From contig QHYH01000109.1 in the NCBI GenBank assembly GCA_003223215.1, positions 1 through 64,000 of the forward strand: 64,000 bases of DNA, written 5' to 3'. The position numbers were made by a program, and so were the translations under genes. This DNA comes from Acidobacteriota bacterium (GTDB taxonomy: Bacteria; Acidobacteriota; Terriglobia; Acidiferrales; UBA7541). This document shows positions 44,204 through 63,910 of this stretch, one piece after another; the stretch's first letter is position 1, and every line of letters begins with the position of its first letter. The notes under the pieces are model-generated. The model saw only the letters and a list, made by a program, of their open reading frames with translations, did not search any database and had not been told where the DNA came from.

Positions 44204-44279
<76 letters not shown>

Positions 44280-44335
44280 ACTTACTTCTTTGTTTTCAAT
44301 CCGGTAGCAAAAACTTCAAGGGGCACTAAGGGGCA

Positions 44336-45491
44336 TTAAGCCACCTTCGAAGGCAATACGAGGCGGACGACTTTGCCGTGCGCCTTGCGTTTGCTTTCGT
44401 CCATGGCTTTGCCGTAAACGTTCATCGCCGTCACGGATGTCGGCGTGGCGCATAAGTTCCTGCTGCACTTTCATCGGAGCCCCGGTTTCATCAAGCAGGG
44501 TTCTGAATGTGTGGCGGAACGAATGCCAGCCGATACGTCCGATACCGCAACGAATGCCTGCGGGAATGATATGACGCCGCTCTACTCCCCAGGGATACCA
44601 AGGCAGCTTGCCTGCCACGAACGGGCTTGCAAACACCCAATCCTCGGGATTTTTGAACCGCGTCTTCCGCCGCCAATTCAAGAGCACCTCGGCCAATGCC
44701 GGATCAAGCGGGATGCCTGCATTGGAGTATTTGGTTTTGACATCGCTTACTACCCCGGTGACGATGCCTCGCCGCACGAGGAGTGTAAGGTCATCCCAGA
44801 GCACGTCACACCACTTAAGGGCGAAGAGCTCGCTGCAGCGGAGCCCCGTGGCGAGATCGAGGATAACCATCGTGCGGAAGGGCTCATCGAGCGCCTTGAG
44901 CAAGGGACGGAATTGAGCAACGCTAAGAACCATCGGCTCACGCTGTCGTTTGCTTGTGCCGCGGACCCGCACGAGCTTCATGGGATTCTCGCCGATCTCG
45001 GTGAGCTCCCAACGCATGGCGCAGTTCCAAAGCACGCGCATGAGATTGTGGAGATGCCCTCTGGTTCTTGAAGCCAGGTCAAGCCCCTTCAACCACTGCT
45101 CCACGGCGAAGGGCTTTACCTTGGAAATCGGGTAGTCGCCCCACCGCGGTTTGATCTGGTGATTGAGGTATGACCTGTATCCATTGGCGGTCGAGTGCCG
45201 CAGCTCGGGAAGCTCTGTTTCGAGGTATCGGCTCACCAGCATACCGATGGTGACCGCCTGTCCTTGAGGATGATCAGAGTTCACATCAAGCTTGCGATGC
45301 TCGATGGCCCGCCACGCATTGGCTTCGGTTTTGAGCATTGAGACGGGACCAATCACTTCAGATCGTTTTGTATAGCCGCCGTCGGACTTGCGTTCCCGCC
45401 AGCGATAGACAAATACGAGGTCCTGCTTTTTCGACGGCCGGGTTTCAATCCAACCGTGTTGATACGTATTTCGAGTTAGCCGCAGCATCAT
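44336..45491 (-). pseudogene. Tyrosine recombinase (integrase), frameshifted before the catalytic Tyr
   Basis: The open frame runs 45491-44316. Visible are the SAM-like N-terminal domain (GMLVSRYLETELPELRHSTA), the first catalytic Arg (LATGLRCSELFALKW), and the HxxR box HSFRHTFRTLL with KVQQELMRHADIR. The natural next residues, TAMNVYGKAMDESKRKAHGK, with the nucleophile Tyr, then VVRLVLPSKVA and TAA at 44336, are only in the next frame. A single extra base (plus-strand C44432) accounts for it. The intact reading would be a normal integrase of about 385 residues. As given, it lacks its Tyr and should be inactive. Confidence 0.88.
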
Positions 45492-47465: not shown

Positions 47466-47861
47466 ATGGCTTTCTTCAAAGTTCGTGGCCAGGAGGTCCT
47501 CGACATGCCTGCCGATCAACTGCGCAATCGAACCGTTGGTTCGAAGATGACCGAGAGCGAGTACGAACAGCTTGTCGCTGTCGCCGAGCGTGACGGTTTG
47601 ACGCTGGGCGAATGGTGCCGTGAGGTGCTCTTGGCGCAAGCAAACACCACTGAAGAGACAAGGCCCCTTGCCACCGAACGGACTCTGCTTGCGGAAGTGA
47701 TGGCGCTGCGGACGATTTTGTTGAATGCACTGTTTAAGCTCGCTCAGGGGGCAGTGCTGACAACCGAGGAACTGGACCGGTTGATCGAGCGGGCCGATGG
47801 AGAGCGATTCGAGAGAGCGCAGGAACGATTCGCGGAAGTCCCAACCGGAGGTAGGTCGTGA
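47466..47861 (+). CDS. MobC-like mobilization accessory protein
   Basis: 131 residues from MAFFKVRGQEVLD. The segment RNRTVGSKMTESEYEQLVAV to LTLGEWCREVLLAQAN (about residues 17-58) resembles the ribbon-helix-helix part of plasmid mobilization accessory proteins that bind oriT and help the relaxase. The rest is helical with a charged tail. Its stop overlaps the GTG start of the coupling-protein gene by 4 bp, supporting a transfer operon. Confidence 0.65.
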   Translation: MAFFKVRGQEVLDMPADQLRNRTVGSKMTESEYEQLVAVAERDGLTLGEWCREVLLAQANTTEETRPLATERTLLAEVMALRTILLNALFKLAQGAVLTTEELDRLIERADGERFERAQERFAEVPTGGRS

Positions 47862-49840
47862 AGCAACAATGGGGCCGGAACTCATACGCGGGCCAGTGGC
47901 AGAATCGCAGGTCGGTGTGGACGTGGACAGCGGCGTTTTTGGCGCTGGCCAGCATGGTGGGAATTTGCGTCTACCGCTACGCCGAAGTGTGGACACCCTT
48001 AGAACGCTTCTATGTGACGACCTACATCCGCAGCGGCCTCCGAAGCCTGGTGAAGTTCTCAAGGACCGACAGCTATTGGACGGTGAGCGCCGTGGGTAAG
48101 AAAGGAAGCCATTGGGCGCTCGACGAGGAGGTCATCGAGGTAAAGACCGGGACCGGCGAGACTGCGCTTGCACTCACGCCTGAAGCTGTGGCGATCGGCG
48201 ACGTGCGGCTTGTCATACAAAAGGTGCTGTGGGACAGCGCAAGGTTACATGACTTCTTGGGCCAGTGGATCTATCGAGACGAAACCTTCCTGGACTTCAT
48301 AAAGTCAGGGCTGCTGGGAGGCGTCGTTGTTTTCCTTGTGGCTCTTGCGTTGGCAATCCCGAAGGATTCCCGGCGAGCTCGCGAGCGGAAAGAAGGACGA
48401 AGGCTCAAGGGACCAGAACTTGTGACCGCCCGGAAATTTAACCGCAGGAATCGTTCCGATGGAATCGGCTTTGAGCTGACAGAACAAACATTGATCCAGA
48501 AAGCATTCGGCAAGGTGCAACGGCTGGTTCTGCCCCGTGCCGTCGAATCGAGCCACATCCTTATTATGGGCGATACAGGGATGGGCAAGAGCACGTTGAT
48601 ACGGCAAATCCTTCTGCAAGTGGAAGCGCGTGGCGACACCGCCATCGTCTACGATCCCGCGCTCGAATACACGCCGAAGTTCTACAAGCCCGAACGGGGT
48701 GACATCATCCTGAATCCTATTGACCATCGCATGCCCTACTGGAGTCCCTCCGACGAACTGACACACGTTACGGAGTCTTCCACGCTGGCCGCTTCGTTGT
48801 TCCCCCATCGGCCCAACGAGAATGCCTTCTTCACCGAAGGCCCGAGGAAAATCTTCGCGCACCTGCTGACTTTTAGGCCGACACCCGAGGAGTTGGCTTG
48901 GTGGATGTGCCACGAAGCGGAGATCGACTACCGAGTGAAAGGCACGGAGTACGCGGCCATGATCGATCGGCAGGCCCCCGCACAGCGGAGCGGCGTACTG
49001 GCGTCGCTAAACATGGTAGCGGAAAGTCTGAAGCTGCTTCCGAAAGAAGCCGATACACCGAAGCGTTGGAGCGCGGCGGCGTGGGCGAACGAGCGCAAGG
49101 GGTGGCTCTTCCTTACCAGCACGCCGGCGACGCGGGAACGGCTCGTTCCCCTCACGAGCTTGTGGCTGGACACGCTGGTGTTGCGGCTGATGAATTATGG
49201 CCAGACAGGTCCTCGTCCCGTGTGGTTCGTCCTGGATGAACTGGCGAGCTTACAAAGACTCCCACAACTGCACACAGCGGTTACGGAAAACCGCAAATCG
49301 AATAATCCTGTTGTACTTGGCTTCCAAGGACGGAGCCAGCTAGAGACGCGCTACGGCCACGAAGCCGAGGCCATGCTCTCGCAGCCAGCCACGAAAATCT
49401 TTCTTGCTACGAGCGAACCGAACGCGGCGCGATGGATTTCGGACGCTATTGGTGAGATTGAGACGGAGCGGTTGACCGAGAGCCGGTCGGGCGGGCGATG
49501 GGGGCGAAGCCGGAACTCGGAGACCCAGAATCTCCAACGGCAACGTGAACCGCTGGTGATACCGAGCGAGATCACCGGGCTCCAGCCACTGCATGGGTAT
49601 CTGAAACACAGGAATCTCGTTGTGGGAATGAGCTTCTCCATCGTCGAACTGCCAGACAGCCATCCTTCATTCATCCAACGGCCGATGGAGATGCCACGAA
49701 AGGAAGAGCGCAAGACTGCGGCAGCGGCGGCGGGAGCAAACAGCACTTTAGAACAGAAACTCGCGTCGCAGGATGGGAAGCAGTCCCCTGAGCAAGAATT
49801 ACGGCGCAACCGAGCAGAACCAGGACACTTCTTCCGGTAG
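47858..49840 (+). CDS. Type IV coupling protein (VirD4/TraD type)
   Basis: 660 residues starting with GTG. Two membrane segments near the N-terminus (AAFLALASMVGICVYRY and GGVVVFLVALALAI) anchor the ATPase. Walker A is GDTGMGKSTLI; PVWFVLDELASLQRLPQLH carries Walker B and the linking helix; VVLGFQGRSQLETRYG and PATKIFLATSEPNAARWISD are typical TraD C-terminal motifs. Coupling proteins pump relaxase-bound DNA to a type IV secretion channel. None is encoded here, so a helper element would be needed. Only 9 bp separate it from the relaxase gene. Confidence 0.92.
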   Translation: MKQQWGRNSYAGQWQNRRSVWTWTAAFLALASMVGICVYRYAEVWTPLERFYVTTYIRSGLRSLVKFSRTDSYWTVSAVGKKGSHWALDEEVIEVKTGTGETALALTPEAVAIGDVRLVIQKVLWDSARLHDFLGQWIYRDETFLDFIKSGLLGGVVVFLVALALAIPKDSRRARERKEGRRLKGPELVTARKFNRRNRSDGIGFELTEQTLIQKAFGKVQRLVLPRAVESSHILIMGDTGMGKSTLIRQILLQVEARGDTAIVYDPALEYTPKFYKPERGDIILNPIDHRMPYWSPSDELTHVTESSTLAASLFPHRPNENAFFTEGPRKIFAHLLTFRPTPEELAWWMCHEAEIDYRVKGTEYAAMIDRQAPAQRSGVLASLNMVAESLKLLPKEADTPKRWSAAAWANERKGWLFLTSTPATRERLVPLTSLWLDTLVLRLMNYGQTGPRPVWFVLDELASLQRLPQLHTAVTENRKSNNPVVLGFQGRSQLETRYGHEAEAMLSQPATKIFLATSEPNAARWISDAIGEIETERLTESRSGGRWGRSRNSETQNLQRQREPLVIPSEITGLQPLHGYLKHRNLVVGMSFSIVELPDSHPSFIQRPMEMPRKEERKTAAAAAGANSTLEQKLASQDGKQSPEQELRRNRAEPGHFFR

Positions 49841-49849
49841 GCCAGCACG

Positions 49850-52621
49850 ATGCTAACCATCTCCAATCCACTGAGTGCGAGCCAGGCCCAGGCGTATCAC
49901 GCGGAGGAGTTTTCCAACGCGCGAGAAAACTACTACACGCAAGGCGACCAGATACGCGGTGAATGGCACGGCAGGCTCGCCGGGCAATGGGGATTGCGCG
50001 GAGAAGTGCGCGAGGAACATTTTCGGAGGCTCTCTGAAGGCCAACACCCGATGAGTGGCGAGCAGCTGGTGCGCCATCAAACAGCGCGGGAATACGTAAA
50101 CAGGCACGGTCGGAAGGTAAGTCCGATGGAGCACCGCGCGGGATGGGATGCAACGTTTTCGGCACCGAAGAGCGTGTCGCTGACTGCCCTTGTGGGCGGA
50201 GATGAACGCGTACGGGAGGCACATCGAGAAAGCGTTGGCATTGCACTCGATGAATTGGAGCGGTATGTCCAGGCGCGCATCGACGGGAATCTTCCGGCAG
50301 AAACAACCGGCAAATGGGTGGCCGCAAAATTCGAGCACGATAGCGCCAGGCCGGTAGACGGTTATGCCGCACCGCAGCTGCATACGCATGTCGTCTTCTT
50401 CAATCTTACGGAGACCGAAGAGGGCGAAGCCTATGCCCTGCAACCACGTGAACTCTACAAAACGCAGCAATATGCGACGGCGGTGTACCGCTCTGAATTA
50501 GCCGCGCAGCTCAAAACACTCGGCTACGGGATCGAACGTGGGAAGAGTGGGCAGCCAGAAATCAAAGGCTACACCGAAGAATACCTTGTGGCATCGAGCC
50601 CGCGTCGCCGGCAGATCAAGGAGCACCTCAAGAAAGAGAAACAGCGAGGAGCAGACGCGGCGCAAATTGCGGCGCACAAAACACGTGAGAGCAAGCTCAA
50701 TCTGTCGCACGACGAGGTGCAGCAGCGACATCGAGAGATAGCGGAGGCTTTCGGCAATCAGCCGGATCGCGTAGTCCGGGCTGTCAAAGAAACGGCGCGC
50801 GACATCGAGCAGGAAGCGCCTCACCGAATCGTTCAATCGGCGATGACATTCTCGAAGGAACGGAATCTGGAACGCGAGGCAGTCGTGGATGAACGTGAGC
50901 TATTGCGAGATGCGTTGAGACGTTCGATGGGAGACGCGACATTCACAGAGGTTCGCACGGAGTTTGAAAAGCGCGTCGGCGCAGGCGAATTCATCGAAGC
51001 CGAGAAACGGTCAGGCGGGCCAAGCCGCGCGTTTACGACCGAAGAGATGATCGGATATGAGCGAGATACCATCCAGATGATGCGGGAGGGACAGAACGAA
51101 TACCCGGCGTTAGCGAGCTTCGAAACGCGGCGAGAAATCGATAATCATCATCCTCATTTAAGCCAGAGCCAACGCGTAGCGGTCGAGCAAATCCTTGCAA
51201 GCCGGGATCAAGTCATGGCGCTGGAGGGTGTCGCAGGCGCCGGGAAAACGACTTCTTTAGCTGTGGTTCGTGAAGCTGCCGAGCGAGAGGGTTACAAAGT
51301 GGAGGGATTCGCCCCAACTTCACGAGCAGCACAAAAACTCACAGAGGCCGGAATCGAATCGAGTACGCTGCAACGGCATCTTGCGCAAGGCCATGACCAG
51401 ACTGGCGTACAAAAACACCTTTACGTTCTGGACGAATCGAGCCTCGCAAGTACAAAGCAGATGAACGAGTTTCTGCACCGGCTCAAAGATAGCGACCGCG
51501 TTTTGCTGGTTGGTGATACACGCCAGCACCAGGCTGTGGAAGCCGGAACACCGTATGAGCAACTACAAGAAGCCGGAATCCAAACTGCTCGACTCGACGA
51601 AATCATTCGGCAGAAAGACCCGGCCCTCAAGGAAGTCGTGGAGCATCTCTCACGCGGAGAGGTAAAGGAGGCAATCGAGAAGCTCGATACGCAGAGCCGC
51701 GTCCATGAAATTGCAGATCCTAACGAACGGCTCAAAGCAATCTCCCATGAATACGCGAAGCAGTCGGAAGGAACACTCGTTGTTTCGCCCGACAACCAGT
51801 CGCGCACGGAAATCAACCGGATGATCCACGCGGAAATGCAAAAGATAGGGCAAGTGGACCACAGGGAGAGAAGCGTGAGAGTGCTCGTCGCACGCCAGGA
51901 GATCACCGGCGCAGACCGTCAGTGGGCCGAGCAATATGAACCGGGCAACATCGTACGCTACACGAAAGGCAGCAAGACGCAAGGCATCGAAGCCGGAGAA
52001 TATTCGCGCGTGGAAAGCGTCAATGCAAAAGAAAACCTGCTCACGGTCCGGCGCGAAAGTGGTGAGAAGATCAGCTACGATCCGCGCCGCTTGCAGGGTG
52101 TGACGCTCTACCGTGAAACGGAGCGGGCCTTCTCCAAAGGCGACCGCGTGCAGTTCACAGCGCCGAACCGAGAGCAACACATTGCGAACCGCGAGTTGGG
52201 AACCATTGAGAAGATGAATGATTCGGCTAACCTGCAAGTGCACCTCGACTCGGGCCGCACAGTCTCATTAAACATCAAAGAGAATCCGCATCTCGACTAC
52301 GGCTATGCCGTGACGAGCCACAGCAGCCAGGGGCAAACCGCTGACCGTGTGCTAGTGCATGTGGACACGGAGCAGGCCGGAGAAAAACTCGTGAATCGCC
52401 GGTTGGCATATGTGGCGGTATCGCGTGGACGTTATGATGCGCAAATCTACACAAACGACAAAACGCATTTGACCGAGCAATTGTCGCGCGACGTGTCCCA
52501 CCGATCCGCAATCGAACCGAGCCGTGAGTCTGCACCCTCAGCGCAGAAGATCGAGTCGCCATCCGCGCGAAGCCAAGTGCATGAACACATACAGGCAGTG
52601 GGTCACAGCATCAGCCGATAG
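49850..52621 (+). CDS. MobF-family conjugative relaxase with helicase domain (TrwC/TraI-like)
   Basis: 923 residues. The relaxase domain (about 1-300) has QAYHAEEFSNARENYYTQGD with candidate catalytic Tyr residues, DATFSAPKSVSLTALVGG and the metal-binding histidines in PQLHTHVVFFN. The helicase part has Walker A LEGVAGAGKTTSL, Walker B YVLDESSLAS, GDTRQHQAVEAG, and late motifs YAVTSHSSQGQTADRVLVH and LAYVAVSRGRYDAQIY. It nicks oriT, stays covalently bound to the strand and unwinds the DNA. The C-terminal tail is hydrophilic. It overlaps the small ORF that follows. Confidence 0.93.
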   Translation: MLTISNPLSASQAQAYHAEEFSNARENYYTQGDQIRGEWHGRLAGQWGLRGEVREEHFRRLSEGQHPMSGEQLVRHQTAREYVNRHGRKVSPMEHRAGWDATFSAPKSVSLTALVGGDERVREAHRESVGIALDELERYVQARIDGNLPAETTGKWVAAKFEHDSARPVDGYAAPQLHTHVVFFNLTETEEGEAYALQPRELYKTQQYATAVYRSELAAQLKTLGYGIERGKSGQPEIKGYTEEYLVASSPRRRQIKEHLKKEKQRGADAAQIAAHKTRESKLNLSHDEVQQRHREIAEAFGNQPDRVVRAVKETARDIEQEAPHRIVQSAMTFSKERNLEREAVVDERELLRDALRRSMGDATFTEVRTEFEKRVGAGEFIEAEKRSGGPSRAFTTEEMIGYERDTIQMMREGQNEYPALASFETRREIDNHHPHLSQSQRVAVEQILASRDQVMALEGVAGAGKTTSLAVVREAAEREGYKVEGFAPTSRAAQKLTEAGIESSTLQRHLAQGHDQTGVQKHLYVLDESSLASTKQMNEFLHRLKDSDRVLLVGDTRQHQAVEAGTPYEQLQEAGIQTARLDEIIRQKDPALKEVVEHLSRGEVKEAIEKLDTQSRVHEIADPNERLKAISHEYAKQSEGTLVVSPDNQSRTEINRMIHAEMQKIGQVDHRERSVRVLVARQEITGADRQWAEQYEPGNIVRYTKGSKTQGIEAGEYSRVESVNAKENLLTVRRESGEKISYDPRRLQGVTLYRETERAFSKGDRVQFTAPNREQHIANRELGTIEKMNDSANLQVHLDSGRTVSLNIKENPHLDYGYAVTSHSSQGQTADRVLVHVDTEQAGEKLVNRRLAYVAVSRGRYDAQIYTNDKTHLTEQLSRDVSHRSAIEPSRESAPSAQKIESPSARSQVHEHIQAVGHSISR

Positions 52622-52799
52622 ACCCTCGATTTCCTCCGCTCTCGCCGCCGTCAAGAGTCAGGCCCGCTACGCTGCTCCCTACGGTCGCCTTGCCCTTACA
52701 CCGGAGCAAAGGAGCGAACTCGCAAGAAAGGCAGTCCAAGCTCGATGGGCAAAGGTCAAGAAGAAACGCCAACGCCCTGCCAAAACGTCGGGCGCATGA
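52581..52799 (+). CDS. Small basic protein, probably real
   Basis: 72 residues from MNTYRQWVTASADRP. The second half, LTPEQRSELARKAVQARWAK followed by VKKKRQ, is a basic helix of a type seen in many small bacterial ORFs. It overlaps the relaxase 3' end by 41 bp in another frame. Its front part coincides with the repeat at 52629-52692. Function unknown; could bind nucleic acid. Confidence 0.45.
   Translation: MNTYRQWVTASADRPSISSALAAVKSQARYAAPYGRLALTPEQRSELARKAVQARWAKVKKKRQRPAKTSGA
52629..52692 (+). repeat. Imperfect direct repeat, copy A
   Basis: A roughly 64-bp sequence beginning ATTTCCTCCGCTCTCGCCGC recurs at 53535-53600 with about 85 percent identity and two or three single-base gaps. The two copies bracket the antitoxin-toxin pair. 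Confidence 0.7.
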
Positions 52800-52805
52800 A
52801 CGGTG

Positions 52806-52811
52806 TATAAT
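52806..52811 (+). promoter_or_regulatory. -10 element of the antitoxin promoter
   Basis: A perfect TATAAT ends 6 bp before the antitoxin ATG at 52818. The start of transcription would fall on the A of the ATG, predicting a leaderless message. No -35 element is evident. Confidence 0.55.
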
Positions 52812-52817
52812 CATTTT

Positions 52818-53111
52818 ATGGCTAAGGACATAATCCACATCTCGGACTCGGAGGCGGCAAACGACTTCGCTTCACTCCTCGACCGTGTGAGCGCTGGAGC
52901 CGAAGTCATTATTGAGCGAAACTCGCGCCCCGTAGCAGTGGTGCGTTCAGCCGAAGCCCCTCGTGGACGTTTACTCTCTGAATCAATCGCCCTAGCGGAA
53001 GCACACGCGAAGGAATTGGGTTACGAACCCACGATGGATGCTGACTTCGCCGCCGATCTTAGAGAGATCATTAATAGCCGCAAACCGCGTGACCTCTCCG
53101 CATGGGACTGA
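52818..53111 (+). CDS. Phd/YefM-type antitoxin
   Basis: 97 residues from MAKDIIHISDSEAANDFASL. The N-terminal Phd fold is seen in SLLDRVSAGAEVIIERNSRP and VAVVRSAEAPRGR, followed by a flexible acidic tail that should wrap the toxin (ADFAADLREIINSRKPRDL). It overlaps the toxin gene by 10 bp. There is no Shine-Dalgarno sequence; see the -10 element just upstream. Phd-type antitoxins also repress their own promoter. Confidence 0.88.
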   Translation: MAKDIIHISDSEAANDFASLLDRVSAGAEVIIERNSRPVAVVRSAEAPRGRLLSESIALAEAHAKELGYEPTMDADFAADLREIINSRKPRDLSAWD

Positions 53112-53515
53112 TTCTCGACTCCAGCATCCTCATCGCAGGAGAACGCGGTGGCGAGAGTGTCCGAGCAATCCTCAAACGAGTACAGGCATCGCAAGGCGAG
53201 ACTGAATCGGGCCTCTCAGCGGTGACCATCGTAGAATTGACTCACGGCATATACCGAGCGAAGAGCGATACTCACCGTGAGCACAGACGAGCCTTTACCG
53301 AAGAACTGTGCCGTGACCTGACAGTCCATCCAGTAACACTCGAAATCGCTCAACTCGCTGGGAAAGTAGAGGGCGAGCAGGCAGCCCGCGGCATAAGCAT
53401 TGCCTTCGAAGATCTGCTGATTGGCACCACAGCGTTGCATCTTGGCTATTCTGTCGCAACTCTGAACGTCCGCCACTTTCGATTGATTCCAGGTCTTTCC
53501 GTGATCCAACTCTGA
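53102..53515 (+). CDS. VapC-type PIN-domain toxin
   Basis: 137 residues. PIN-domain acidic residues are visible: Asp in GLILDSSILIAGERGG, Glu in TIVELTHGIYRA, Asp in IAFEDLLIGTTALHLG and the late NVRHFRLIPGL segment. VapC toxins are RNases that cut tRNA or rRNA. Coupled to the Phd-type antitoxin by overlap, the pair is a type II module that would help keep the island in the cell. Confidence 0.9.
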   Translation: MGLILDSSILIAGERGGESVRAILKRVQASQGETESGLSAVTIVELTHGIYRAKSDTHREHRRAFTEELCRDLTVHPVTLEIAQLAGKVEGEQAARGISIAFEDLLIGTTALHLGYSVATLNVRHFRLIPGLSVIQL

Positions 53516-53534: not shown

Positions 53535-53600
53535 ATTTCCCTCCGCTCTCGGCGCCGTCAAGGGGTATGCCCGCTGCCGCGGCTCCCTGTGGTCGCCCTT
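53535..53600 (+). repeat. Imperfect direct repeat, copy B
   Basis: Begins ATTTCCCTCCGCTCTCGGCG and matches 52629-52692. It starts 20 bp after the toxin stop. In this copy the small-protein reading frame of copy A is broken. Confidence 0.7.
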
Positions 53601-54010
53601 GACTGCGGCTTCGCTCGGAAGTGCCACCCGAAACTACAACACTTGCATGGCAGTAGTTAATTCCCACCCTGCCTCCGTATACTTCAGGTAAGGAATCGAA
53701 TTGGAGCCTCGACCATCGATACCCGAATTCAGGTTTCGACTAAATGGCATTTTCCTGCCAGAGATCAACGTCCGGCGCGGACCAGACGGCGGCAACGGGC
53801 TTGCTGCGAAAGACAGAGAGCTTGGCTGGATCGTCGTGCACGACAGGTCGGACTTGATCCTCGAATGGCGGGACGAGACCGCATGGGCGCTTCTCCCGAT
53901 GGAGAATGTGCCAAGCGTCGGTCGATAAGGGCTGGAACCGCGCAACGCCGCAGGAGCTAGTCGGAATTCTATGGAGTTCCGGAGTGCTCAAGTAAGCCGA
54001 CCTAACTCCG
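53601..54010. other. Gap without a supported gene
   Basis: Three short ORFs overlap here (plus 53701-53928, minus 53634-53945 and minus 53740-54021) and none has a family signature or ribosome site that would decide between them. A small plus-strand protein (segment GWIVVHDRSDLILEWRDETA) is the most protein-like. Confidence 0.35.
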
Positions 54011-55468
54011 ATGCTCATCACAAAGTCAAAATTCGTCGCCGGGGTGCAGTGCCTAAAGCGCCTGTACTTGACAGTTCACACGCCCGAACTGGCGGCGCAG
54101 CCGGATGAGTCGGATCAGTCGATCATCGACCAAGGGCGAGAGGTCGGTCTTCTGGCACGGCAGATGTTTCCGGGCGGTGTAGTCGTTGAGTGCAAGGATC
54201 GAGAACAGGCCATCCGAATGACTCGGGAGCTAATCGAAAATCCGGAAATCCCTGCGATCTTCGAGGGTGCGTTCGAGCACCGGGGCGTTTTCGTCCGAGT
54301 CGATGTGCTCCACCGTCGTCCAGATCACCGCTGGCGGTTGATCGAGGTCAAATCGACAACCGATGTCAAAGACCACCACGTCGATGATGTTGCAACCCAG
54401 CACCGGGTGGTGACCCGCTCGGGATTCGATGTGGCATCATCATGTCTGGCGCACGTGAGTCGAGATTACGTGTATGAGGGCGGCCCTATCGACGCAAGCC
54501 GCTTCTTCAGGATCCGGAACCTCACCCGGCAAGTCGAGAGATTGCAGCCAGAGCTTACGGTTCAACTTCGCTCAGAATTTCGAGTCCTCGCGATGCCTGA
54601 GGCTCCCAATATTCCTGCTGGACGACAGTGCAGCGATCCATTCACTTGCGAGTTTTTTGATCATTGCAATCCCCCGATTCCTGACGACCACATTCTGCGA
54701 CTCCCCAGAATCCATGCCGCGACGGTGGCAAAACTTGTCGCTCTCGGCATTCAGTCGATTCACGACATCCCAGAGAATTACCCTCTCACGCAACGGCTGC
54801 GTCGTGCGTGCGCGAGCGTTCAAATGGGGAAGCCGTGGTATGGCGCGGAACTTAAGGGCGAGTTAAAAGGGCTGAGATACCCGTTCTACTTCGCGGATTT
54901 TGAAACGATAAATCCATGCATCCCGCGATTTCCGGGGATGAGACCGTACGACCAACTGCCGTTCCAATGGTCGGTTCATTTGCAACGGCAACCGGGCGCT
55001 GCGCCCGAGCATTCCGAATTCTTAGCAACCGACGAGAGCGATCCTCGCCTTCCGTTCATCTCGGCGCTTTGCGATGCCCTCGGTGATCGCGGCAGCATCG
55101 TCGTGTACCACCAGCAATTCGAATCTCTGCGGCTCTCAGACCTTGCCTCGTGGCTGCCGGAGTTCTCGGGGCGGATCAACAAGATTCAGCGCCGACTTTG
55201 GGACCTGCTGCCAGTCGTCCGCAATCACGTGTACCATCCGGCTTTTGGTGGCTCGTACTCCCTGAAGTCGGTACTCCCGGCGTTGGTGCCTGAGATGACG
55301 TATGAGGGCATGGAAGTGGCGGACGGGCAGGCTGCTGGACTGGCTTGGGAATCGCTTATTGGCGGTGCTTGCAGCGAAGCCGAGCGCCAGCGGAAACGGG
55401 CGGCGCTGCTAGACTACTGTGCTCAGGACACGCTAGCGATGGTAAGAATTGTCGATGCACTTTCCTAG
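54011..55468 (+). CDS. DUF2779-like nuclease: Cas4-type domain fused to DEDD exonuclease domain
   Basis: 485 residues. The N-terminal part is PD-(D/E)XK/Cas4-like: FEGAFEHRGVFVRVDVLHR and RLIEVKSTTDVKDHH supply the Glu, Asp and ExK residues. Four cysteines, Cys14 and Cys207, Cys213, Cys219, have the spacing of the Fe-S cluster of Cas4/AddB nucleases. From about residue 295 an RNase H-like 3'-5' exonuclease domain follows: FYFADFETINPCIPRF, GSIVVYHQQFESLRLSDLA, LLDYCAQDTLAMVRIV with the YCxxD end motif. Probably a DNA-processing or defence enzyme; substrate unknown. Confidence 0.82.
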   Translation: MLITKSKFVAGVQCLKRLYLTVHTPELAAQPDESDQSIIDQGREVGLLARQMFPGGVVVECKDREQAIRMTRELIENPEIPAIFEGAFEHRGVFVRVDVLHRRPDHRWRLIEVKSTTDVKDHHVDDVATQHRVVTRSGFDVASSCLAHVSRDYVYEGGPIDASRFFRIRNLTRQVERLQPELTVQLRSEFRVLAMPEAPNIPAGRQCSDPFTCEFFDHCNPPIPDDHILRLPRIHAATVAKLVALGIQSIHDIPENYPLTQRLRRACASVQMGKPWYGAELKGELKGLRYPFYFADFETINPCIPRFPGMRPYDQLPFQWSVHLQRQPGAAPEHSEFLATDESDPRLPFISALCDALGDRGSIVVYHQQFESLRLSDLASWLPEFSGRINKIQRRLWDLLPVVRNHVYHPAFGGSYSLKSVLPALVPEMTYEGMEVADGQAAGLAWESLIGGACSEAERQRKRAALLDYCAQDTLAMVRIVDALS

Positions 55469-55616
55469 CAGAAAACCCAACTCCTGCATTGGTTGGAGTA
55501 ACCAAAAAGACAGCGTAGCTTATGATAGCCTAGCATCGGTGTTCCGGAACCCGCCGTCTGTGCCGAGATTCATCTTAGAATTGTGTACTCGGGACTGGTT
55601 TCATCTGCAAATTCAT

Positions 55617-55832
55617 GCTCATTGAACAGCTAAAACCAAACGCGATTGTGCGCGGCCCGATCTTCCCTGAGCCCGTTCAGGTGCTCGTCGCCATCCCGAT
55701 GGGCACCTCGATCAAGCTGGTCGGCAAGGGCTTGAGTACCAATCAGGTGCATGAACTGATTCTGAATGGGAGCAACTAGCCCAATTAGACTCCAGCCCTG
55801 AAAAAGAGCCCTTCGACGGCGACCCCTTGCGT
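55617..55832 (+). pseudogene. 5' fragment of a SNF2/DEAH-type helicase
   Basis: ATG at 55617 reads MLIEQLKPNAIVRGPIFPEP and IPMGTSIKLVGKGLSTNQVH to LILNGSN then TAG. In the next frame the family continuation AQLDSSPEKEPFDGDPLRFR is present up to about 55832, after which similarity ends. I recognise this as the N-terminus of large SNF2-type helicases found in defence islands (DISARM/DUF3883-type loci). About 70 of roughly 1000 codons remain. Confidence 0.65.
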
Positions 55833-56217
55833 TTTCGACGCGCCGGGTCAGGTTGCAACCTACGATCCGATTGATCCTACCGTCCTCAATTTTGAAATGA
55901 GAGCCACGCCTGTTGGGAAGATTGAAGAAGAGAACCATCCTGACCTTGGGCTAGATTTCGTCACGGTGTATCCCCACACAGATCACAATAGCCCACTCTA
56001 TGAATACAACGGGCTGAGCGGTGGAGGATTGTGGGAATTGAGTTATGTTCCCGATGAGACAGCCATAGAAGGCTTTCGATATGAACCGATGTTTTTTGGC
56101 GTGAACTTTCTTCAGCAGCGAGAAGACACAACCAAGCCTTGCGAAAAAGTGCGCTGTTTGGGGCGCAGGGCTGTACAAAGCCTAATCAATAAGTACCGTC
56201 AGGAGAAGAAGAAGTAA
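55833..56217 (+). pseudogene. C-terminal fragment of a trypsin-like protein
   Basis: From the junction with the helicase fragment one frame reads FDAPGQVATYDPIDPTVLNF, LDFVTVYPHTDHNSPLYEYN, GLSGGGLWELSYVPDETAIE, GFRYEPMFFGVNFLQQRE. GLSGGGLW resembles the GxSGG nucleophile loop of trypsin-like proteins, but the His/Asp half is missing. An ATG at 55897 could start a 106-residue product. Best seen as a truncated gene fused at a deletion scar. Confidence 0.5.
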
Positions 56218-62408: not shown

Positions 62409-63393
62409 CTAGCCGGTCCGCGAGGGAATCAATGTTAACTTCTTCACGCGTGGCGATTCTGCCATGATTTCCGCTCTAGCCGTCGAGGGAAAATAACTCA
62501 GGGCCGATCTCCCGGCAATCCCAGCGTAGGCAAACCTGGGCTCGACAAGGGAGAATATCTCGCCGACGACGGTCTTGAACCAACCCTCGGCATCGTCGAA
62601 ATTGAACAAAGACGATTTCGGGCAAACAAGATATTCGTTCCACAATTCCTTGATCGCCTGGAACGGCAGTTCGAGCAGGAGGTTCCTTGCGATCATGGGC
62701 TCCGGCTCGTAGATGGTTTGCTTGAGAAAAGTCGACAGGACTTCGCGTCGCGAAACATTCAGGGTCTTTTGAAAAAAGACCGCATGGACGAAGTCATATA
62801 GGTCCGGCGAGTGGCGGCGTTGCAGTAGAGCTTTCAACTTCGATGCAAGCAGCTCTTCTAGCTGCTAGCTTTAGACATCGAATGTCGCCCCGACAAACTG
62901 CCGCGTCCGAATACGAATGGATCAAGTGCCGCATTTGGATCGGCAGCAATATCCGGTCGTACTCTTTTACATCGACATCTACCCGGATCCTTGCATCTTC
63001 CTCGCCATAGAAGCTCTTGAAATATACACGCGCCTCATAAATGCGGGCTTCGGCGTCGGCCAATCGCTTCTCCGACACTCGGCTGTCGTCGATCAGAAAT
63101 TCGACGCCACTGCGCTCGCCCGCCGCAGCGCATGCCTGTTTTAGTCCTTGCAATAGCAGGTCGACATCGAGTTCCGTTTGCGTTGAAAAATCGAGATCGT
63201 TTGAAAATCGGCCATGTTCGAAGTAGGCCTTGCGGAATGAGTTGCCGCCCTTGAGGACCAGAAGCGGCTGCAGCGGATTGTCCGCCCTGAAAATGCTGGA
63301 CAGCAGCCATCCGAATACGTAATCCCGCTGAACGTTGGCAGCATGGACGCCAAGTTCTTCGGCTTTTGCATCGATCTCATGCTTGTCGATCAT
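62409..63393 (-). pseudogene. AbiEii-type nucleotidyltransferase toxin, frameshifted by a 7-bp tandem duplication
   Basis: MIDKHEIDAKAEELGVHAAN starts a protein with the AbiEii nucleotidyltransferase core LLVLKGGNSFRKAYFEHGRF and SNDLDFSTQTELD (about residues 43-75). At CTAGCTG/CTAGCT (62858-62870) the frame breaks; the natural continuation LEELLASKLKALLQRR and DLYDFVHAVFFQK is in another frame down to 62409. Removing one 7-bp unit restores a single 325-residue reading frame. AbiEii transfers nucleotides to tRNA or other targets; no AbiEi antitoxin gene is present upstream. Confidence 0.82.
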
Positions 63394-63619: not shown

Positions 63620-63910
63620 GTGAAAATACGGAACATCGTCCATAAGGGCCTGACACGGCTCTACGCGGAGGGCAACCCTAAAGGCGTGCCGCCCGACACT
63701 GTGGACAAGCTCCGCAAGATGTTGGCGTTTCTCGATGACATGCAAGAGCCGGAAGAGCTGCGCGCCCTCCCCTCTTGGAAAGTACACACGCTGACGGGCG
63801 ACCGCAAAGGGACTTGGAGCCTCAGCGTTACGCGCAACAGGCGCTTAACATTTCGTATCGACGCGACAGAGCAGGAAATCTGCGATTTGAATTTGGAAGA
63901 CTATCACTAA
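63620..63910 (+). CDS. higB: HigB/RelE-type toxin
   Basis: 96 residues, GTG start. MKIRNIVHKGLTRLYAEGNP, LRKMLAFLDDMQEPEELRAL, WKVHTLTGDRKGTWSLSVTR and NRRLTFRIDATEQEI match HigB toxins, ribosome-dependent mRNases of the RelE fold. The order toxin-first followed by an XRE antitoxin is typical of higBA. No Shine-Dalgarno sequence is visible, and the predicted 5' leader is only a few bases. Confidence 0.9.
   Translation: MKIRNIVHKGLTRLYAEGNPKGVPPDTVDKLRKMLAFLDDMQEPEELRALPSWKVHTLTGDRKGTWSLSVTRNRRLTFRIDATEQEICDLNLEDYH

Follow-up and report, generated by a model that had tools for sequence, protein, structure and literature searches.

A gene at positions 54011 to 55468 of the stretch analyzed here (QHYH01000109.1, positions 1-64,000, forward strand; GCA_003223215.1; referred to below as the window) encodes a DUF2779-family protein with two predicted nuclease domains that is carried as island cargo. 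The protein is most likely (probability of about 0.5) an accessory anti-phage or anti-plasmid defense nuclease that is exchanged between islands. Defense is the best-supported role, and DNA repair, which we consider possible at a lower probability, is its main rival. The family is known and uncharacterized, and the two-domain architecture has already been described and is not new. The features of the window to which we refer are as follows.

44204-44279: tRNA-Ala (ARAGORN)
44316-45491, minus strand: tyrosine-type integrase, adjoining the tRNA-Ala gene (PF00589, E=5.2e-16)
47858-49840, plus strand: TrwB-type coupling protein (PF10412, E=6.8e-78)
49850-52621, plus strand: TrwC relaxase/helicase (PF08751, E=5.2e-84)
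52803-53515, plus strand: Phd/YefM-type antitoxin (52803-53111, PF02604) and PIN-domain toxin (53102-53515, PF01850)
54011-55468, plus strand: DUF2779-family protein, 485 amino acids (ORF; PF11074, E=8.5e-42; predicted Cas4-type PD-(D/E)XK and DEDD-type exonuclease domains)
54011-54676, plus strand: N-terminal Cas4-type nuclease domain, residues 1-222, with D98, E112, and K114 (VIA-align and conservation)
54050-54052, plus strand: C14, the first of four putative Fe-S ligands (conserved in 53 of 62 members)
54629-54667, plus strand: C207, C213, and C219, three further putative Fe-S ligands, C-x5-C-x5-C (conservation)
54875-55465, plus strand: C-terminal 3'-5' exonuclease-like domain, residues 289-485, with D296, E298, E371, D398, and D473 (VIA-align and conservation)
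55615-55779, plus strand: remnant comprising the first ~50 amino acids of a DUF3883 helicase-related protein, followed by a stop (tblastn)

Predicted anatomy and conservation of the protein

The ORF extends from an ATG at 54011 to a stop codon at 55466-55468. Its product matched the Pfam DUF2779 profile (PF11074) over residues 293-417 and profile positions 1-126 of 126 (142.8 bits; cut-off, 23.3), and RNase_H_2 gave a weak match under its cut-off. NCBIfam returned sub-cut-off matches only, the best of which was the TM0106 RecB-like family (TIGR03491; 28.8 bits against a cut-off of 97.45; best over residues 335-480). No Cas4/DUF83 model in Pfam or NCBIfam matched at E<=1, nor did any family of PADLOC-DB 2.0.0 (2023), and a PDB sequence search gave chance-level matches only. 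A known PADLOC defense system was rejected because no PADLOC model matches. A chance ORF was ruled out by the DUF2779 profile match together with residue conservation across members, and a broken gene by the intact ORF and a dN/dS of 0.136.

The AlphaFold2 model of the full protein (alignment of 20 proteins) had a mean pLDDT of 93.3, and that of residues 1-287 alone had 93.4. In VIA-align comparisons, the N domain was closest to Cas4 (7mi5_A; Z, 14.3; 3.2 A; 181 residues), followed by two further Cas4 structures (8d3l_I, Z 13.7; SSO0001, Z 13.2), AdnA (11.7), and then RecE, human EXO5, MGME1, Dna2, and AddB; Foldseek found the same kinds of structure. The range aligned to Cas4 (residues 1-222) contains all four cysteines. 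Residues 289-485 were closest to the exonuclease regions of B-family polymerases (polymerase alpha; Z, 16.1; 2.4 A; 171 residues), with archaeal PolB exonuclease regions at Z 15. A Foldseek search with the full model gave three matches at E<=0.001 (Cas4 Pcal_0546, AdnA, and EXO5), with RNase T appearing from E=0.01. In the predicted structure, a small helical linker joins a Cas4-type PD-(D/E)XK domain to a B-family-polymerase-type 3'-5' exonuclease domain, in agreement with the two-nuclease chain proposed in the initial annotation, and the anatomy of the protein is settled as far as models allow.

The initial annotation had also described four correctly spaced cysteines, an ExK motif, and exonuclease signatures ending in YCxxD. 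The cysteines (C14, C207, C213, and C219) are all present, and D98 lies upstream of the ExK motif, which reads E112-V-K114. C207, C213, and C219 are spaced C-x5-C-x5-C; Cas4 and AddB have C-x2-C-x5-C, and this part of the description needs correction. The C-terminal motif (Y469-C470-A-Q-D473) is as described, and D296, E298, and D473 are in place; the second acidic motif is E371, whereas DEDD enzymes have D at this motif. The four cysteines may hold an iron-sulfur cluster.

We surveyed these positions in 62 family members, some of which are cut by contig ends (the census omits L013, which is the same place as L064, and L082, a near copy of L081; the fragments L008 and L011 are absent from both the census and the tree described below). 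In the N-terminal active site, D98 was present in 61 members, E112 in 60, and K114 in 59 (R in the other 3). The cysteines were present in 53 (C14; 5 of the other 9 were gaps), 59 (C207), 60 (C213), and 61 (C219) members. In the C-terminal active site, the counts were 60 for D296, 61 for E298, 60 for D398, and 56 for D473 (4 gaps), and position 371 was E in 60 members and a gap in the other 2. The window protein has all 13 positions checked. A lack of conservation of the catalytic residues in homologs had been named as grounds for abandoning the initial annotation; they are conserved in this census. A distant branch of the family (L057-L063, L066, and L067) has C-x2-C-x6-C spacing; a plasmid pair (L022/L102) and a viral-contig member (L089) lack only C14, and the cysteines are shifted in L086 and L093. 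One member (L090, 2442-3926), whose gene lies directly after a Res-like gene, has none of the four cysteines but retains the two active sites, consistent with loss of a metal clasp as a whole. Compared with its relative in L003 (79% identity), the window gene had a dN/dS of 0.136 as a whole (0.116 for the N part and 0.166 for the C part) and appears to be under purifying selection.

The protein resembles several known families in part. With Cas4 and UvrD-Cas4 it shares the predicted fold of residues 1-222, the PD-(D/E)XK residues, and the four cysteines; unlike Cas4, it has an extra exonuclease domain, a wider cysteine spacing, no Cas4 profile match, and no Cas1 match in its genome. With the proofreading domain of B-family polymerases and DEDD exonucleases it shares the predicted fold of residues 289-485 and the D-x-E and Y-x3-D motifs, but it has E371 at the second acidic motif and no polymerase domain. 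The TM0106 family, which we take to be COG2251, likewise combines a RecB-like nuclease with an RNase H-like exonuclease part, but the window protein matches its profile only weakly, below the cut-off. COG2251 proteins often carry tandem AAA domains, according to the portions of Majorek et al. 2014 (PMC3985635) available to us. The same portions list DUF2779 (PF11074; family F.17) among families presumed to be 3'-5' exonucleases and note its DUF83 domain; the C-terminal domain is paired there with an N-terminal DUF83-like PD-(D/E)XK domain as in the window protein, with no defining difference, and the passages on DUF2779 give neither a biological role nor gene neighborhoods. The literature searched contained no biochemical study of DUF2779 proteins, and nothing on the family was found in the literature on TM0106 and UU173. 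We know of no activity for DUF2779 proteins.

Setting of the gene in the window

The DUF2779 gene lies 1.4 kb after the TrwC relaxase gene and directly after the toxin-antitoxin pair. It follows the integrase/relaxase element; the initial annotation had placed it in island cargo. The best explanation, at about even odds when taken as a whole with the defense role, is that the gene is cargo of an integrated conjugative or mobilizable element. Between 45500 and 64000, no repeat of the tRNA-Ala end exceeded 11 bases. Imperfect direct repeats (52630-52689 and 53537-53597; 82% over ~61 nt) flank the Phd/PIN pair, as if the pair had arrived as a cassette.

Downstream, the helicase remnant mentioned in the initial annotation reads as the beginning of a DUF3883 helicase-related protein (65% identity to a Planktothrix DUF3883 protein; tblastn E=5e-14), cut after 54 amino acids; the Planktothrix gene is 2832 bp (~943 amino acids). 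Its first 51 amino acids had no other match in the window genome, and it differs from the SNF2 protein found beside relatives. For a 75-amino-acid ORF (53701-53928) and a 127-amino-acid reading (55834-56214), only their own window copies matched among the loci compared. A 106-amino-acid ORF (55897-56217, plus strand) with an SGGG stretch, presumably resembling the end of a trypsin-type protease, also had no relatives among these loci. Near the window end, there were Pfam matches to an AbiEii-type nucleotidyltransferase (62794-63393, minus strand) and a HigB-like toxin (63620-63907, plus strand). The same genome contains a second, truncated DUF2779 copy (G000:C9:6769-7047; L002, 1501-1779), in which residues 1-93 are retained at 77% identity before the frame enters unrelated sequence; judging from its sequence, this region resembles an insertion-sequence insertion.

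Cas1 had no match in the window genome (97.65% complete), and the same search was positive in 9 of 14 control genomes. A CRISPR-linked Cas4 was rejected on this basis, in line with the earlier description of a chain without CRISPR. No SNF2, Mod, or Res gene lies beside the window DUF2779 gene, and no SNF2 protein at E<=1e-100 was reported for this genome among the 2 of 14 candidates that were scored. The term stand-alone in the initial annotation is apt for the window copy, which has no intact partner helicase or defense gene beside it; we counted the missing intact defense partner against a defense role.

Distribution and neighbors of DUF2779 genes

Counting the own genome and one weak match, the protein was present in 7 of 61 relatives, and PF11074 was detected in 24 of 399 genomes of the class (own included; 22 above the family cut-off) and in 0 of 14 control genomes. 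The family spans several bacterial phyla. Of 72,556 plasmid records, 31 carried a DUF2779 gene; 27 of these 31 carriers were typed as non-mobilizable, and they include plasmids of 16 and 36 kb. No match was found in 50,697 phage records. An alignment-based scan of IMG/VR yielded 18 loci (three remote, L094-L096; two nearly identical), where a single-protein scan gave none, and the contigs concerned may be islands, not phages. In the portions of the sources available to us, PathFams ranks DUF2779 among pathogen-associated domains of unknown function (PMC8442362), and an Arcobacter plasmid paper lists it (PMC6690266).

An all-against-all comparison of neighbors across 34 loci revealed one recurring multi-gene set, consisting of an SNF2 helicase, a Mod-type methyltransferase, and a Res-type helicase/nuclease. 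This set lies beside DUF2779 in L005, L006, L049, L050, and L066, all in convergent orientation with the nearest gene 17-80 bp past the end of the DUF2779 match, and in L086, where DUF2779, SNF2, Mod, and Res follow one another on a single strand. The Res protein of L049 is of another PADLOC type, and that of L066 is a distant relative only. PADLOC matches for the L005 neighbors were DrmD (E=5.5e-205), a type III methyltransferase, and a type III restriction enzyme. L086 shares a contig (IMGVR_UViG_3300032737_000190) with L093, such that two DUF2779 genes lie ~17 kb apart, one of them heading the SNF2-Mod-Res row. At L007 (6857-9118), a DUF2779 gene cut at about residue 288 adjoins reversed SNF2 helicase remnants, i.e., a decaying locus. 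The neighbor orders of L009, L010, L018, L062, and L065 were left out. In the literature searched, which included few subscription papers and no preprints, DUF2779 was not described together with SNF2-Mod-Res. A Cas4-like nuclease fused to UvrD occurs with type III Mod/Res according to the part of PMC5704561 available to us, and this arrangement is a close precedent.

We built a tree of 55 rows, excluding L013, L082, L094-L096, and proteins outside 440-600 amino acids (L065 was kept, cut to 520 amino acids). The window protein pairs with L003 (100/99) inside a nine-row clade (100/100), in which SNF2 and type III Mod/Res genes adjoin DUF2779 in 4 of the 8 other rows. The SNF2-Mod-Res label, assigned to 7 rows (the six loci above and L090), recurs outside this clade, with at least 4 changes on the tree, forced by well-supported branches, versus 6.7 for shuffled labels. 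Across the 399 genomes, DUF2779 and this SNF2 helicase occurred together in 8, versus 2.05 expected (P=3.4e-4, kinship ignored; two candidates scored per genome). In 3 of these 8, both genes were within 10 kb of each other, and these 3 had prompted the test; without them, the count was 5 versus 1.64 expected (P=0.018), and after further removal of a stop-ridden SNF2 fragment and a 36%-identity match, it was 3 versus 1.40 (P=0.16). Because the co-occurrence fades without the prompting genomes, our confidence in the defense reading was lowered slightly.

Other neighbors were more varied. In L003 (9595-9984), L048 (10064-10471), and L079 (7627-7986), an ORF of ~130 amino acids overlaps the start of DUF2779, with a serine recombinase nearby; this ORF is unmatched in the window, and Pfam gave nothing for its L048 copy. 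L048 additionally has a type I restriction specificity protein nearby. IetA-like genes were seen near L049 (an ORF assigned to this locus by reading), in L019 (an IetA-like ATPase), and, as a related gene, near L057. The 92 near ORFs (11 loci) matched 197 PADLOC families and the 102 control ORFs (11 stretches) matched 42, a comparison not used as a statistic because one type I specificity protein alone matches 105 families. At L051-L053, L055, L056, L058, L060, and L061, the neighbors are housekeeping or unrelated genes (partly by reading of the sequences): L055 and L056 share neighbors read as rimP-nusA-infB (two each of the RimP, NusA, and IF-2 families), and L051 and L052 adjoin phosphoribosyltransferase-like genes, with a DksA-like gene also read at L052.

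For plasmids, we examined 17 of the 31 records, with flanks of 10 kb (first six) or 8 kb (rest). Genes with defense-type terms (restriction, Qat, SIR2, WYL, phospholipase-D, ATP-dependent endonuclease/UvrD, and DEAD/DEAH helicase) were present in 9 of the 17 stretches (H5, H6, H8, H12, H14, H15, H17, H20, and H29), or in 10 of 17 if H26, where a DEAD/DEAH helicase adjoins dbpA and which we counted as none, is counted in. For 12 plasmids, an ~17-kb far-side stretch of the same plasmid served as a control: defense-type neighbors were present in 8 of 12 stretches near DUF2779 and 1 of 12 controls (discordant pairs, 7 to 0; two-sided sign test, 0.016). The lone positive control was a DEAD/DEAH helicase, and one "PLDc N-terminal" control product was left uncounted. 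The enrichment is suggestive only because the term list was drawn up after the tables had been read and 4 of the 12 compared plasmids are from Arcobacter-group bacteria; plasmids also exchange genes freely. In Aliarcobacter cryaerophilus, DUF2779 begins one base after a set read as qat (qatC alone is so annotated). A TM0106 RecB-like nuclease is encoded together with a DUF2779 gene and two WYL genes in a stretch of one Sphingobium plasmid (L097, 11466-12662). SbcCD genes were found near two plasmid members and also in one control stretch.

The defense role suggested by the initial annotation is plausible and favored on this mixed evidence: the window's own clade and the plasmids often adjoin defense-type genes, while farther out in the family the neighbors are housekeeping or unrelated genes, and no PADLOC model matches. 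Neighborhoods dominated by housekeeping genes had been named at the outset as a point against defense, and the eight chromosomal loci above, outside the clade, lie among housekeeping or unrelated genes.

Possible roles

Cas4, EXO5, and AddB attack the ends of single-stranded DNA chiefly from the 5' side. By analogy, the Cas4-type module would do the same, and the exonuclease module would remove the 3' strand, such that once a helicase, translocase, or restriction enzyme has opened the DNA, one chain may break down both of its strands. With no intact partner helicase adjoining it, the window copy would act alone or with host helicases. A more specific form of the defense reading, which we put forward tentatively, is that DUF2779 is an unrecognized exchangeable nuclease component of several defense systems, chiefly of a compound type III restriction locus (DUF2779, DrmD-like SNF2, Mod, and Res), in which a two-polarity nuclease would destroy DNA opened by the restriction/translocase machinery; the window copy would then be a freed mobile form.

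Somewhat unlikely in our view, though the strongest rival, is an end-processing enzyme of DNA repair or recombination, similar in outline to AddB, EXO5, or Dna2, that would trim flaps or ends of both the 5' and the 3' type without any special tie to defense and would sit in the island incidentally. The fold list, in which AdnA, EXO5, MGME1, Dna2, and AddB come closely behind Cas4, is consistent with such an enzyme, as are the chromosomal relatives adjoining the rimP-nusA-infB set and other housekeeping genes and the SbcCD genes near two plasmid members, although SbcCD genes also occur in one control stretch. In the part of PMC7373297 available to us, Mycoplasma bovis transposon mutants include a DUF2779 gene among other nucleic-acid (DNA/RNA) metabolism genes, which fits a cellular role and counts against defense. 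However, presence in 24 of 399 genomes is too patchy for a core repair enzyme, and restriction-modification genes adjoin half of the window's own clade.

It is improbable that the protein serves the mobile element itself, either by processing transferred single strands or by attacking competing DNA or host defense. The position of the gene behind the relaxase and the toxin-antitoxin pair would suit such a factor, as would the 31 plasmid records, with carriers as small as 16 and 36 kb, and the 18 IMG/VR loci; against it, there is no match among the phage records, 27 of the 31 plasmid carriers are typed non-mobilizable, and a protein similar to the window relaxase occurs among the neighbors of just one other locus (L057) of the 34 compared. 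Very improbable is a decaying, now functionless relic of a lost defense locus, for which the helicase remnant, the second genome copy truncated after ~100 amino acids, and the cut gene of L007 beside reversed SNF2 remnants would speak, and against which stand the intact ORF, the full set of catalytic residues, and the dN/dS of 0.136 to L003.

DUF2779 is a family of several phyla with two complete conserved nuclease sites, yet no activity or role was found in the literature searched. If the recurrent SNF2-Mod-Res seat reflects function, type III restriction loci would gain a degradative arm, and there would be a simple test of the DUF2779 role; if it does not, the DUF2779 protein would still be a ready-made dual nuclease for biochemistry.
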